Source of the DNA: Erysipelotrichaceae bacterium
GTDB taxonomy: Bacteria; Bacillota_I; Bacilli_A; Erysipelotrichales; Erysipelotrichaceae
Length of the DNA: 60,525 nt
Assembly: GCA_017404205.1 (NCBI GenBank)
Contig: JAFRCV010000005.1
Location: 1 to 60,525 of the forward strand
Reading direction: 5' to 3'
Below the pieces are notes generated by a model that saw only the letters and a list, made by a program, of their open reading frames with translations, was not told where the DNA came from and did no database searches. The position numbers and the translations under genes are program-made. Positions within the stretch are counted from its first letter, which is position 1. Each line of letters starts with the position of its first letter. Below, one piece after another: positions 8,888 to 23,427 of this stretch.

Positions 8888-8915
8888 AAAACCAAGTTTA
8901 GCTTGGTTTTTTTCT
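8888..8915 (+). terminator. Intrinsic terminator of the ferredoxin gene
   Basis: Stem AAAACCAAG (8888-8896) and CTTGGTTTT (8902-8910), loop TTTAG, followed by more T's. A classic rho-independent terminator just after the ferredoxin stop. Confidence 0.9.
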
Positions 8916-8935
8916 TAATGATAAGGAGACATAAA

Positions 8936-9712
8936 ATGATTAACTATAGCGAAGATCAAGCAAAACAATATCATACTAATTTAGGAAAAGATGATATTGG
9001 TGAATATGTAATACTTCCAGGAGATCCCGGCAGATGTGAAAAGATTGCGAAATATTTTGATAATCCAAAACACATCACAACAAATCGCGAATATTGTACA
9101 TATACTGGTACATTAGATGGTGTTAAAGTTTCTGTTGTGTCTACAGGAATTGGTGGTGCAAGTGCTTCTATAGCTCTTGAAGAATTATGTGATTTAGGAG
9201 CTAAAACATTTATTAGAGTTGGTACATGTGGTGGTATGCAACTAGATGTTAAAGGTGGCGATGTTGTTGTTGGCAATGCTTCAATTAGATTTGAAGGAAC
9301 AAGTAAAGAATATTGTCCAATTGAATATCCAGCAGTAGCTGATTTTGATGTTACTAATGCTCTTGTTGATAGCGCTAAAAAGCTTGGATTAAACTACCAT
9401 GTTGGTGTTTGCCAATCAAAAGATGCTTTCTATGGACAACATAGACCAGAAGTACTTCCAAATAGCCAAGAATTATTAAACAAATGGGATGCATGGTTAA
9501 AGATGGGCTGTCTAGCAAGCGAAATGGAATCAGCTGCTTTGTTTATTGTTTCTTCATTTAGAAGAGTAAAATGCGGCTCTGTATTCCTTGTTATGGCTAA
9601 TCAAGAAAGAGCTAAAGCTGGCTTAGATAATCCTGTAGTTCATGATACTGATGTAGCTATTAAAGTTGCAGTAGAAGCAATTAGAGAACTTATTAAAAAA
9701 GATCATAAATAA
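8936..9712 (+). CDS. udp: Uridine phosphorylase
   Basis: Cleaves uridine with phosphate to uracil and ribose-1-phosphate. The 258 residues align well with E. coli Udp as I recall it: the phosphate-binding ILPGDPGR motif, [18 protein letters not shown], the uracil-binding Gln/Arg pair in a GQHR block (GQER in E. coli), and [10 protein letters not shown], which supplies the ribose-binding MEME-type segment. The start at 8936 follows AAGGAG at proper spacing; a longer reading from 8903 would begin inside the ferredoxin terminator. It links functionally with upp, pyrR and the uracil permease further along. A broader purine nucleoside phosphorylase role is less likely because of the GQxR pair. Confidence 0.88.
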
Positions 9713-10256: not shown

Positions 10257-10523
10257 ATGAATGTTGATTTATTAACTGTATCTTCAAAAGGGCAGATTGT
10301 ATTACCAATTGAAATTAGAAAAGCTTTATCAATAGAATCAGGTGATAAATTAGCAGTATATGCGAGTGATGATGTAATAATGCTTAAAGCTATAAAAATG
10401 CCAACTGAAGAAGAATTCAAGATAAAGTTAAAACAAGCTAGCAAATGGGCAAAAGAAGTTGGTTATAAAGAAGAAGATATAAATGACATTATTAAATCTG
10501 TTAGAAAAAATAAGAAAAAATAA
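10257..10523 (+). CDS. AbrB/MazE-type antitoxin, SpoVT-AbrB DNA-binding domain
   Basis: An 88-residue protein whose first ~50 residues form a swapped-hairpin AbrB fold (VSSKGQIVLPIEIRKALSI...GDKLAVY). The C-terminal part is charged and helical, typical of the toxin-binding tail. It starts behind a GGGGG Shine-Dalgarno, and its stop codon overlaps the start of the PIN toxin by one base. The neutralising role is inferred from family and gene pairing. The duplicated palindromes immediately upstream are the probable binding sites. Confidence 0.85.
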   Translation: MNVDLLTVSSKGQIVLPIEIRKALSIESGDKLAVYASDDVIMLKAIKMPTEEEFKIKLKQASKWAKEVGYKEEDINDIIKSVRKNKKK

Positions 10524-10924
10524 TGAAGATTGTCATTGATACAAATGTTGTTATATCAGGCATATTTTTTAATGGTTTTCCAAGAAGAATAATCGAAGCC
10601 GTAGTTGATGATAAGCTTGAAGCTTTTACTTCGGAAGATATTATATTGGAATATCAAGAAATAGTTTCTGAGATGATTGATAGAAAACAAGGAAAACTGG
10701 ACCACAATATTCTTGATTTTTTTATTTCTAAACTTCATTTCGTTGATAAAAAATCAAATGTAAAAATATCTAGAGATCAAGATGATAATAAATTTATCAA
10801 CTGTGCTCTAGATTCTAAGTCGTTATTTGTTGTTAGTGGTGATAATGATTTACTTGTAATTAAAAAATATGAAGATATAGAAATAATAACTGCTGCAGAA
10901 TTCTGTAAGAAATTTCTACAATAA
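10523..10924 (+). CDS. PIN-domain toxin (COG1569-type ribonuclease)
   Basis: A 133-residue PIN-domain protein. The N-terminal IVIDTNVVISG carries the first catalytic aspartate. A central acidic helix (SEDIILEYQEIVSEM) supplies the glutamate. The C-terminal block SRDQDDNKFINCALDSK, followed by VVSGDNDLL, carries the remaining acidic residues. These are the metal-binding positions of PIN RNases, so it looks catalytically intact. It is translationally coupled to the AbrB-type antitoxin. Target RNA is unknown. With the IS remnant upstream, the pair looks like an accessory insertion between housekeeping genes. Confidence 0.87.
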   Translation: MKIVIDTNVVISGIFFNGFPRRIIEAVVDDKLEAFTSEDIILEYQEIVSEMIDRKQGKLDHNILDFFISKLHFVDKKSNVKISRDQDDNKFINCALDSKSLFVVSGDNDLLVIKKYEDIEIITAAEFCKKFLQ

Positions 10925-21045: not shown

Positions 21046-21076
21046 ATTAAAATGGCTATTTATTAGCCATTTTAAT
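21046..21076. terminator. Bidirectional terminator after pyrP
   Basis: Perfect arms ATTAAAATGGCTA (21046-21058) and TAGCCATTTTAAT (21064-21076), loop TTTAT. It overlaps the stop codon of the convergent lipoprotein gene. Confidence 0.85.
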
Positions 21077-21965
21077 TTATAAAATATGAATTCAAGAAGA
21101 ACATTAGTTCTTCTTTTATTTCATTAAATTCTTTTAATTTATTTATGTCATTTGTATATGAACTAATATTATATCCATCGATAAAGCTGATATTTATTTC
21201 ATAATAATCGCTAAAACAAGTGTTTATATCATCTTTAGATGTTCCATCATCTAAATCTTCTATTCCTAACTGATATATTAAATTAAAGAGTTCTTTTAAA
21301 TAATCATCTTGGATATTTGAATATATGATTTCTATATTTCCATTATCATCTATTTTTCTTACAATTTGATTATTCTCTAAATCTAAATAATAAGAATATG
21401 CCTTATTATCGTATTTAAAATTAAATAAATAGTCTTTAATAGTCTTAAATGAAGGTATTAAATCATTATGACCTTTTTCAATAAATAATCTTTTTAATAA
21501 TCGCAAGATTGATTTTGTCCAAAGACAATATGGATCACCATCATCTTTATAATGAAAAGTTTCGCCACTTTGATATTTGATATCTATATACATTGGTGAA
21601 TATTCATCTGGTAAACCGACACTTACAACATCATATCCATTTTTATCCACTAGATTATAATTATCAATTATTCTTTGAAATCTTTGTAAATCATCTTTAT
21701 TAATTACTTCTTTGATGTTAAATTCACTTGTTTCACTTAAAATAATTGAATTGTTGTCATTTATAATTTCTATGTCATAAGTGTGATTATCAATATTAAA
21801 ATGTGTTGATAAATATTCAATATCTTTTGAAATAATGCTTTTGGGTGCCTGATTATTACTATTATTAATGATTCCTCCATCATCTATATCAATATCTGAC
21901 TTACAAGAAGAAAGAAAAGCCATAATTAATAATAAAATGAATATTTCAATTTTTTTCTTTATCAT
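21072..21965 (-). CDS. Predicted lipoprotein, unknown function (divergent paralog A)
   Basis: A 297-residue secreted lipoprotein: basic N-terminus MIKKK, hydrophobic core, lipobox AFLSSC, then an acidic, Asn/Asp-rich body. Function is unknown. Two similar halves can be seen, each with an amphipathic helix (DLQRFQRIIDNYNL and YLKELFNLIYQLGI), then a strand pair around a G turn (IDIKYQSGETFHY and INISFIDGYNISSY), then a closing helix. The divergent neighbour has the same layout, so the two look like distant paralogs. The start at 21965 is chosen because a minus-strand TATAAT lies exactly 6 nt upstream and the signal peptide begins there. An upstream ATG at 21989 would precede the promoter. Confidence 0.75.
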   Translation of the reverse strand: MIKKKIEIFILLLIMAFLSSCKSDIDIDDGGIINNSNNQAPKSIISKDIEYLSTHFNIDNHTYDIEIINDNNSIILSETSEFNIKEVINKDDLQRFQRIIDNYNLVDKNGYDVVSVGLPDEYSPMYIDIKYQSGETFHYKDDGDPYCLWTKSILRLLKRLFIEKGHNDLIPSFKTIKDYLFNFKYDNKAYSYYLDLENNQIVRKIDDNGNIEIIYSNIQDDYLKELFNLIYQLGIEDLDDGTSKDDINTCFSDYYEINISFIDGYNISSYTNDINKLKEFNEIKEELMFFLNSYFIN

Positions 21966-21971
21966 AAGGGT

Positions 21972-21981
21972 ATTATATAAT
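21972..21981. promoter_or_regulatory. Palindromic overlapping -10 boxes of the divergent lipoprotein genes
   Basis: ATTATATAAT is its own reverse complement. It contains TATAAT on the plus strand (21976-21981, 8 nt before the ATG at 21990) and on the minus strand (complement of 21972-21977, 6 nt before the ATG at 21965). Neither gene has a Shine-Dalgarno, so both transcripts would start at or next to the start codon, and polymerases should compete for the site. Confidence 0.6.
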
Positions 21982-21989
21982 ATAAGCAA

Positions 21990-22910
21990 ATGTTGAATAG
22001 AAATATCTTAAAAATGGGAGTTATCTTAATTATGCTTACTTTTTTTGGTTGTGGAAATAAAATTAATGAAACTGACTTAGATTATTTTTATTATTCATAT
22101 GATGGCTCAATAGGTGGAAATAATTATTCATATGAATTAAAAGATGGTGTTTTAAAATATTTCGCAATGGACAAAGATTATCGAAATCTTGAAATGCAAG
22201 TTGATGATAAGCTATTCAAAGAATTAAAAGAATTATATATAGAATATAAGGTTTATAATTGGAACGGCTTTGATAAATATAATAAATATGTTTTAGATGG
22301 CGAAGGCTTCTCATTGAATATAAATTTTGAAGATGGTGAAAGATTAAGGGCTCATGGCTCTAATTCTTTTCCAAACAATTATTTCGAATTTCAATCAAAA
22401 CTTGATGAAATAATGAAGCCATATATTGAAGAAATGAAAAATAATTATATAGCTGAACTTGTTTCAAAAGGTGTAGATGGTCATCTTTGTTCAATAATGC
22501 TTCATTATATTGATAAAGAAAATGGCGATGATTATAATATATCTATTTATAAAACTGATAATAAATCTCATAAAAATTTTAGTGTTGATATAAAGAATAA
22601 TAGTAATAAAGATTTAAGTGAAGAGAATTTTTATATTTATGGGCATCTAGATAATGAATACATTAAATTTGAGCATATAGAAGAATTAATTAATAGCTAT
22701 TCAATATTAGCTTGGAGTGATTTTCATGGCAATAGTGATAAAAAAGATACCGAATGGTTTCAAATAAGCTTTGAATTTGATGATGAAAATCATACTAGAA
22801 TTAATGCTTATGGATCTTTATATCCCGATAATTATTTTGAATTTAAAGATGAAGCACTTAGATATTTAATTCCTTATATCAGGAATGTATCTTCTAATGT
22901 TGTCGAATAA
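21990..22910 (+). CDS. Predicted lipoprotein with duplicated domain (divergent paralog B)
   Basis: A 306-residue lipoprotein with signal segment GVILIMLTFFGC, the cysteine being the lipidation site. Function is unknown. The mature part holds two copies of one domain. Copy 1 (about residues 70-140) ends LRAHGSNSFPNNYFEF followed by a helix ending KPYIEEM. Copy 2 (about residues 225-300) ends INAYGSLYPDNYFEF followed by a helix ending IPYIRNV. The aligned NYFEF and PYI positions make an internal duplication clear. The layout matches the minus-strand neighbour. It is followed by a membrane protein gene one base after its stop, suggesting that they work together at the membrane. Confidence 0.78.
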   Translation: MLNRNILKMGVILIMLTFFGCGNKINETDLDYFYYSYDGSIGGNNYSYELKDGVLKYFAMDKDYRNLEMQVDDKLFKELKELYIEYKVYNWNGFDKYNKYVLDGEGFSLNINFEDGERLRAHGSNSFPNNYFEFQSKLDEIMKPYIEEMKNNYIAELVSKGVDGHLCSIMLHYIDKENGDDYNISIYKTDNKSHKNFSVDIKNNSNKDLSEENFYIYGHLDNEYIKFEHIEELINSYSILAWSDFHGNSDKKDTEWFQISFEFDDENHTRINAYGSLYPDNYFEFKDEALRYLIPYIRNVSSNVVE

Positions 22911-22911
22911 T

Positions 22912-23427
22912 ATGACTATAAACAAAAAACTTTTTGGATTCTTAGTTACTCTTGATATTTTATATTTGCTTATATTGACATTTTTAAATGATCCTTTTAA
23001 GACAAATTACTCAATGATGACAAGTAGTATTGTAGGCTACATAATGGTCTTTATTTTATGCCTTTTACTTGCCATAAGTATTTATATATCAACATATAAA
23101 TATAATAAAAAATATGCTCTAATAGCTTTTATAACGATGTTACTATCAGCTATATTCCCATACAATCAAAATGGTGACATCTTCTCTAATTTACATGAAA
23201 TATTTGGATATATTGCATTTGTGACAATTAATATTGTTACTATTTTAAATATTTATAAGTTTTATTTAATTGATTCATCTAGAGGAAAAACAATAGCTAT
23301 TTTATATATAATTATTTTGTTTATAGATGTTTTATTATATATTGAAACAAGTGGGACAAAAGCTATAGAACAATTAATATTATTGTCTTCAATTTTATTG
23401 ATTAATTATTATCTGTATATATATTAG
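22912..23427 (+). CDS. Polytopic membrane protein, unknown function
   Basis: A 171-residue, very hydrophobic protein with about six membrane segments and short loops; not recognised. The ATG at 22912 comes one base after the lipoprotein stop; longer readings starting inside the lipoprotein gene are possible but give an unnatural N-terminus. There is no Shine-Dalgarno, consistent with translational coupling. It may form a functional unit with the preceding lipoprotein. Confidence 0.65.
   Translation: MTINKKLFGFLVTLDILYLLILTFLNDPFKTNYSMMTSSIVGYIMVFILCLLLAISIYISTYKYNKKYALIAFITMLLSAIFPYNQNGDIFSNLHEIFGYIAFVTINIVTILNIYKFYLIDSSRGKTIAILYIIILFIDVLLYIETSGTKAIEQLILLSSILLINYYLYIY

Follow-up and report, generated by a model that had tools for sequence, protein, structure and literature searches.

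Each of the two lipoproteins encoded divergently at this locus consists of two related units, and the first unit of the plus-strand protein is predicted to have the fold of Mago nashi, a messenger-RNA-tagging core protein of the exon junction complex. The unexpected part is this apparent Mago fold in bacterial surface lipoproteins. Our preferred reading, held with modest confidence, is that the two proteins are lipid-anchored on the outer face of the membrane and serve as paired, non-enzymatic Mago-fold binding modules.

Two divergent lipoprotein genes and a membrane protein gene

The window, meaning the whole stretch of DNA analysed (60,525 nucleotides), has a G+C content of 30.6% and belongs to a genome of 1.62 Mb. 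The sequence-only reading had described two divergent lipoprotein genes and a gene for a six-span membrane protein, and all three open reading frames are present. MINUS (21072..21965, minus strand) encodes a 297-aa lipoprotein with an ATG start, the lipobox LSSC and two divergent units; a TTG at 21989, listed among the open reading frames as an alternative start, was judged less likely than the ATG at 21965. PLUS (21990..22910, plus strand) encodes a 306-aa lipoprotein with the lipobox FFGC and tandem units. The lipobox cysteine ends the signal peptide in both proteins (lipobox at residues 18-21; PLUS signal peptide and lipobox at 21990..22052, plus strand, residues 1-21), as read from the sequence and from our own pattern check, in which F was permitted at the first position. 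A gap of 24 bp (21966..21989) separates the two start codons, and a motif scan found no promoter-like sites inside it.

MEM (22912..23427, plus strand), the six-span membrane protein of 171 aa, has its ATG one base past the PLUS stop codon; the coordinates 22910 and 22912 thus agree with the spacing first noticed. Two other ATGs are possible, at 22885 and 22897, and the starts of relatives favour 22912 by eye. Two terminator-like hairpins, one per strand, lie at 21046..21115, between the end of the permease gene and the MINUS 3' end, with the plus-strand hairpin inside the MINUS gene; between 20950 and 23700, 3 terminator-like sites were observed against 0.2 expected. Genes for uracil phosphoribosyltransferase, PyrR and a uracil/xanthine-family permease lie upstream of the locus, and downstream are those for an aldo/keto reductase carrying clusters of the ferredoxin type and for a DUF4230 protein. 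None of MINUS, PLUS and MEM reached a Pfam or NCBIfam cut-off. Like the sequence-only reading, we found no described system with this composition. Elsewhere in the window (10257-10924), two overlapping genes were judged by eye to resemble an antitoxin of the AbrB type and a toxin with a PIN domain.

The two lipoproteins share a duplicated unit

The duplication had been called plain in the plus-strand protein, and pairwise comparison bore this out. The PLUS halves matched by BLAST (8e-9, 32% identity over 77 aa), and their Smith-Waterman score of 123 compared with a shuffle mean of 39, with 0 of 500 shuffles as high. No duplication was visible in pairwise comparison of the MINUS halves, where 203 of 500 shuffles equalled the real score, and the whole MINUS and PLUS proteins gave a BLAST E of 0.95. 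Among the cross-comparisons of MINUS and PLUS halves, only the two C-terminal halves stood out (1 of 500 shuffles); for the remaining three pairs, 19, 103 and 369 of 500 shuffles reached the score.

Kinship became visible with profile alignments of relatives (A4, 12 rows; A5, 33 rows, from which L127 was excluded, its match spanning more than one frame). The whole MINUS and PLUS profiles, signal peptides included, gave a colinear hhalign match of 97.8%. With the signal peptides removed, hhalign gave 97.8% for PLUS-N with PLUS-C, 91.7% for MINUS-N with PLUS-N and 87.9% for MINUS-C with PLUS-N; the weaker pairs were MINUS-C with PLUS-C (69%), MINUS-N with PLUS-C (26%) and MINUS-N with MINUS-C (8%). 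Column shuffles reached the score in 0 of 60 cases for each of the six pairs, a generous control, since shuffling columns also scrambles the sequence of structural elements. As independent support, a profile of the MINUS N-terminal half alone, run against 1135 open reading frames of the fetched neighbourhoods, matched two PLUS-type lipoproteins of genome G274 (2e-9 and 8e-9) and a single-unit protein of G140 (7e-7); the third lipoprotein of the G274 array was unmatched. At the level of sequence profiles, these comparisons show MINUS to be a distant relative of PLUS, built from the same two units. The earlier description of each lipoprotein as two related units therefore stands, with the MINUS units matching each other weakly and both matching PLUS. 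MINUS unit 1 (21465..21836, minus strand, residues 44-167) was placed by hhalign to PLUS unit 1, and MINUS unit 2 (21078..21449, minus strand, residues 173-296) by hhalign to PLUS units 1 and 2.

Other arrangements of the unit were seen among relatives. Three adjacent two-unit lipoprotein paralogs lie on one strand in G274 (L141:7854-10585). At L121:1974-4834, a MINUS-type protein (a single unit matched) and a two-unit protein of the PLUS type are encoded on one strand within 3 kb; between them lie genes for a membrane protein of 219 aa and for a Nudix-like product (both by eye). A single protein at L127:4083-4961 fuses the unit to a second, larger stretch.

The first PLUS unit is predicted to have a Mago nashi fold

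An AlphaFold2 model of PLUS, made with no templates, reached a mean pLDDT of 90.3 and a pTM of 0.79. In this model, PLUS unit 1 (22077..22469, plus strand, residues 30-160) has strands at 30-38, 45-51, 54-60 and 66-70 and a helix at 73-85, followed by a second part with strands at 106-113 and 118-124 and a helix at 131-160, two very short elements being omitted here. PLUS unit 2 (22482..22898, plus strand, residues 165-303) repeats this order of elements in the model, and its profile matches that of unit 1 in hhalign. Structure prediction, which had been proposed as a check on the halves, gave a common predicted order for the PLUS units, b-b-b-b-a-b-b-a. The unit had been read as helix, strand, turn, strand and helix; this fits its second part, and four more strands are predicted to precede it.

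We then compared the model with known structures. With Foldseek against the PDB, Mago nashi or Magoh chains made up 8 of the first 9 rows, with E values from 4.2e-4 to 5.6e-3 and a probability of 1.00. With VIA, human and fly Mago came top (Z 12.4, 3.0-3.2 Å over 121-122 residues, 17% identity), and the eight Mago rows together spanned Z 11.7-12.4 and 2.9-4.0 Å over 112-123 residues at 16-18% identity. The first non-Mago fold had Z 6.3, followed among the listed rows by MHC-type molecules at Z 4.2-5.3. These alignments with Mago cover PLUS unit 1 only and come from one predicted model. The published order of MAGO, as given in the available text of PMC4807384, is b1-b2-b3-b4-a1-b5-b6-a2-a3, and the agreement of the modelled order with it supports a Mago-like fold. 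The results thus support a Mago nashi fold for PLUS unit 1 in the predicted model, and the MINUS units would share a fold of this type. A viral structure library gave 3 rows below E 0.001 (best 4.7e-5), which were unconvincing, with TM-scores of at most 0.22 and rmsd above 18 Å.

The unit is scattered across bacterial genomes in several forms

A PLUS search of 61 genomes matched 11, or 10 after G042 was dropped, and all 10 belong to the genus. The dropped G042 matches, L011 and L015, have equal frame length and score; the L011 sequence was inspected and resembles a transposase by eye. The full-length two-unit PLUS form occurred only in G000, G014 and G020 (3 of 36 genus genomes), and MINUS occurred in 13 of the 36 at E <= 0.01, two of them weakly; many of these 36 genomes are incomplete. 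The unit profile matched in 11 of 296 genomes of the class and, at a stricter limit, in 6 of 295 genomes in the set drawn as the phylum.

A scan of named genome contigs found 19 loci with the unit, single or in tandem, under titles naming Bacilli, Firmicutes, Erysipelotrichaceae, Clostridia, Clostridiales, Oscillospiraceae, Lachnospiraceae, Saccharofermentans, Mageeibacillus and Coriobacteriaceae. By eye, the unit occurs in lipoproteins, in proteins with one N-terminal helix, in short proteins without a signal and once behind a zinc-ribbon-like N-terminus. Several relatives have a lipobox or a single N-terminal hydrophobic helix (by eye and by pattern check). Short relatives free of a signal peptide are present in the genus, so surface display is not general.

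The protein at L110:1492-2097 joins the unit to the zinc-ribbon-like N-terminal part (by eye) and matched phrog_24571 at 3e-12; its 7 matches to phage records were all confined to residues 6 to 63. No phage record matched PLUS. Among viral contigs, 102 stretches fitted a pattern and 0 were confirmed.

The lipoproteins may act as surface binding modules

The lipobox signal peptides, the duplication, the kinship of the units at profile level and, in a confident model, the fold of the first PLUS unit are all supported. On the proposed mechanism, MINUS and PLUS would be anchored by lipid to the outside of the cell membrane, where each would display two copies of a small, non-enzymatic Mago-fold domain. 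The units would most likely act as protein-binding modules, with small-ligand binding less likely, and the two copies would provide two binding faces. The divergent genes would be expressed together. The near-invariant residues of the unit are Y48, W91, D103, G104, F107, A121, G123 and P128. A catalytic role was considered and rejected, as these residues are unlike a catalytic set and look structural by eye. Together with a nearest fold that binds protein and a tandem, lipid-anchored display, they point to binding modules with two faces. A binding rather than catalytic unit and co-expression of the divergent MINUS and PLUS genes are both inferences. No neighbour gene is constant across the contexts of the family.

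Two other roles were weighed, both of which we consider improbable. The lipoproteins could be surface immunity or decoy proteins against the toxins of competitors, which would explain why they are patchy, divergent and sometimes arrayed. The patchy spread of the unit profile (11 of 296 class genomes) and the three adjacent two-unit paralogs in G274 fit this idea. However, no toxin gene was recognised beside the family in any of the 14 neighbourhoods listed out of 16 (by eye, from the first 75 residues of the neighbours), and PADLOC returned one weak, partial match to PLUS (1.1e-4, residues 133-205), with no match to any of the five further proteins scanned.

A role for MINUS as an accessory of an envelope-stress complex of the PspA/SPFH type seems no more probable than immunity. 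In two genomes, G014 and G001, MINUS is adjacent to SPFH, TPM-domain and zinc-ribbon genes, and in G015 it lies seven open reading frames from such genes; the G035 stretch has the zinc-ribbon gene alone, further off. YdjG and YdjH of B. subtilis carry zinc-ribbon and TPM domains. According to the available text of PMC8581546, the SPFH protein YdjI of B. subtilis, with YdjG and YdjH, anchors PspA and so links it to the membrane. The neighbouring genes and this parallel make the stress-complex role a fair rival. Nevertheless, the full SPFH, TPM and zinc-ribbon set was found in 3 of 12 MINUS neighbourhoods, the window counted, and in the window itself MINUS does not adjoin it.

MEM is probably linked to pyrimidine salvage

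The model of MEM (pLDDT 95.7) has six long helices and one short one, and its structural search returned generic helix bundles only (at best E 1.6 with Foldseek and Z 10.2 with VIA). Relatives of MEM were found in 28 of the 61 genomes searched, 27 of them among the 36 of the genus. Family matches of these relatives were all weak among those listed, with a best E for any family of 0.0018: DUF998 (PF06197) matched 6 of 28 at E <= 0.1 (best 0.0047), and Frag1/DRAM (PF10277) matched 1 of 28 (0.0095). MEM itself scored 12.5 bits against DUF998, below the gathering cut-off of 30 bits.

Of the 26 genus neighbourhoods other than the window, 21 have a uridine phosphorylase gene directly upstream of MEM on the same strand, overlapping it by 17-50 bp in 20 of the 21 cases, with overlaps that depend on the start codons picked by the open reading frame script. 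The other genes preceding MEM encode a Mur-ligase-type, folC-like product (2 of 26), a secreted-looking product (2 of 26) and a putative acetyltransferase (1 of 26). The identity of the 21 neighbours (loci L068-L071 and L080-L096) rests on their 68-73% identity to the uridine phosphorylase of the window, whose gene (8903-9712) is closest to 3qpb (1.2e-108, next matches about 1e-54). In the window, that gene is not followed by MEM, which lies 1.9 kb from the permease gene. As MEM elsewhere mostly follows uridine phosphorylase, its family is probably linked, by its neighbours, to uridine or uracil salvage. In the window, MEM would be a pyrimidine-salvage-linked protein that came to sit behind PLUS, and it is probably not functionally tied to the lipoproteins.

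The survey of co-occurrence suggested as a check went against a single module. Full-length PLUS occurred in 3, MINUS in 13 and MEM in 27 of the 36 genus genomes, many of them incomplete, and all three genes share one locus only here and in G014 (2 of 36). The single envelope module suggested by the sequence-only reading, a sensor or adhesin to which MEM would belong as membrane partner, is quite unlikely: the 1-bp PLUS/MEM spacing in the window, the one-strand order in G014 (PLUS, 5'-nucleotidase, a secreted-looking gene, MEM, aldo/keto reductase) and the MINUS-type, membrane and PLUS-type proteins within 3 kb at L121 favour it, but the rarity of the full trio and the uridine phosphorylase that usually precedes MEM argue against it.

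A 5'-nucleotidase gene and an uncharacterised gene stand in series with MEM at L060:7231-10415 and L061:2462-6728. In G001, a nucleotidase open reading frame lies head to head with MINUS, overlapping it as the script called the starts. In the genome of the window, the best match to the G014 5'-nucleotidase, with the secreted-looking gene behind it, is on a different contig.

Comparison with DUF6438 and Mago nashi

DUF6438 (PF20033) is the nearest named family. At E <= 0.1, 13 of 33 members of the unit family matched it, over spans beginning at profile positions 16-43 and ending at 97-115 of 116 (ranges seen). The best match (2.7e-6) reached 28.1 bits and PLUS 15.7 bits, both below the gathering cut-off of 30 bits. 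The lipoprotein-like L166 stands between the two, with 26.6 bits for DUF6438, under the cut-off, and 23.9 bits for the PLUS unit profile. The one DUF6438 protein over the cut-off, L165, gave no match to the unit profiles, which counts against a close relation. Our literature search found no paper on DUF6438. The present model would offer a first structural frame for the family of the unit, bacterial surface proteins for which the closest named family, DUF6438, has no assigned function.

Common descent with Mago was assessed by sequence. With hhalign against human and fly Mago, 4, 45, 7 and 1 of 100 shuffles reached the score for PLUS-N, PLUS-C, MINUS-N and MINUS-C, a weak test because the Mago profile consists of two near-identical sequences; in global mode, the half-profiles gave no signal against Mago. 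A PDB sequence search with profiles A1, A4, A5 and A6 returned 4, 4, 0 and 0 matches, none below E 0.2. The window proteins do not exceed the curated cut-off of PF02792 (Mago_nashi), and 0 of 296 class genomes had a match above it. Below this cut-off, 28 of the 296 class genomes gave matches at E 0.004-0.5, which were treated as noise; 11 of their 31 rows had internal stops, and none was in G000. Because the sequence tests were unconvincing, we claim the fold and not membership of the Mago family: the fold is common with Mago, and common descent is unproven by sequence.

A 2014 database survey states that MAGO and Y14 are eukaryote-specific (PMC3885619), and Magoh was already present in the last eukaryotic common ancestor according to a 2018 study (PMC5862402). 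Among the matches listed by a literature search, no bacterial, prokaryotic or Mago-like case came up. It is conceivable, though doubtful, that Mago nashi has a genuine bacterial homologue in this unit and that the exon-junction-complex core protein came from a widespread bacterial binding domain. Were this so, Mago would be no eukaryotic invention, and its ancestral domain would now reside in DUF6438-like surface proteins of gut bacteria.

Mago nashi is intracellular and has no signal peptide. The PLUS unit has in common with Mago nashi/Magoh (PF02792, exon junction complex core) the order of strands and helices and the overall fold, with the b4-a-b2-a arrangement predicted in unit 1 and the same order in unit 2. 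Unlike Mago nashi, the window proteins are bacterial, both carry lipobox-type signal peptides that would mark them as exported and lipid-anchored, and their units stand in tandem. A bacterial family with a Mago fold would make the origin of this exon-junction-complex protein testable.
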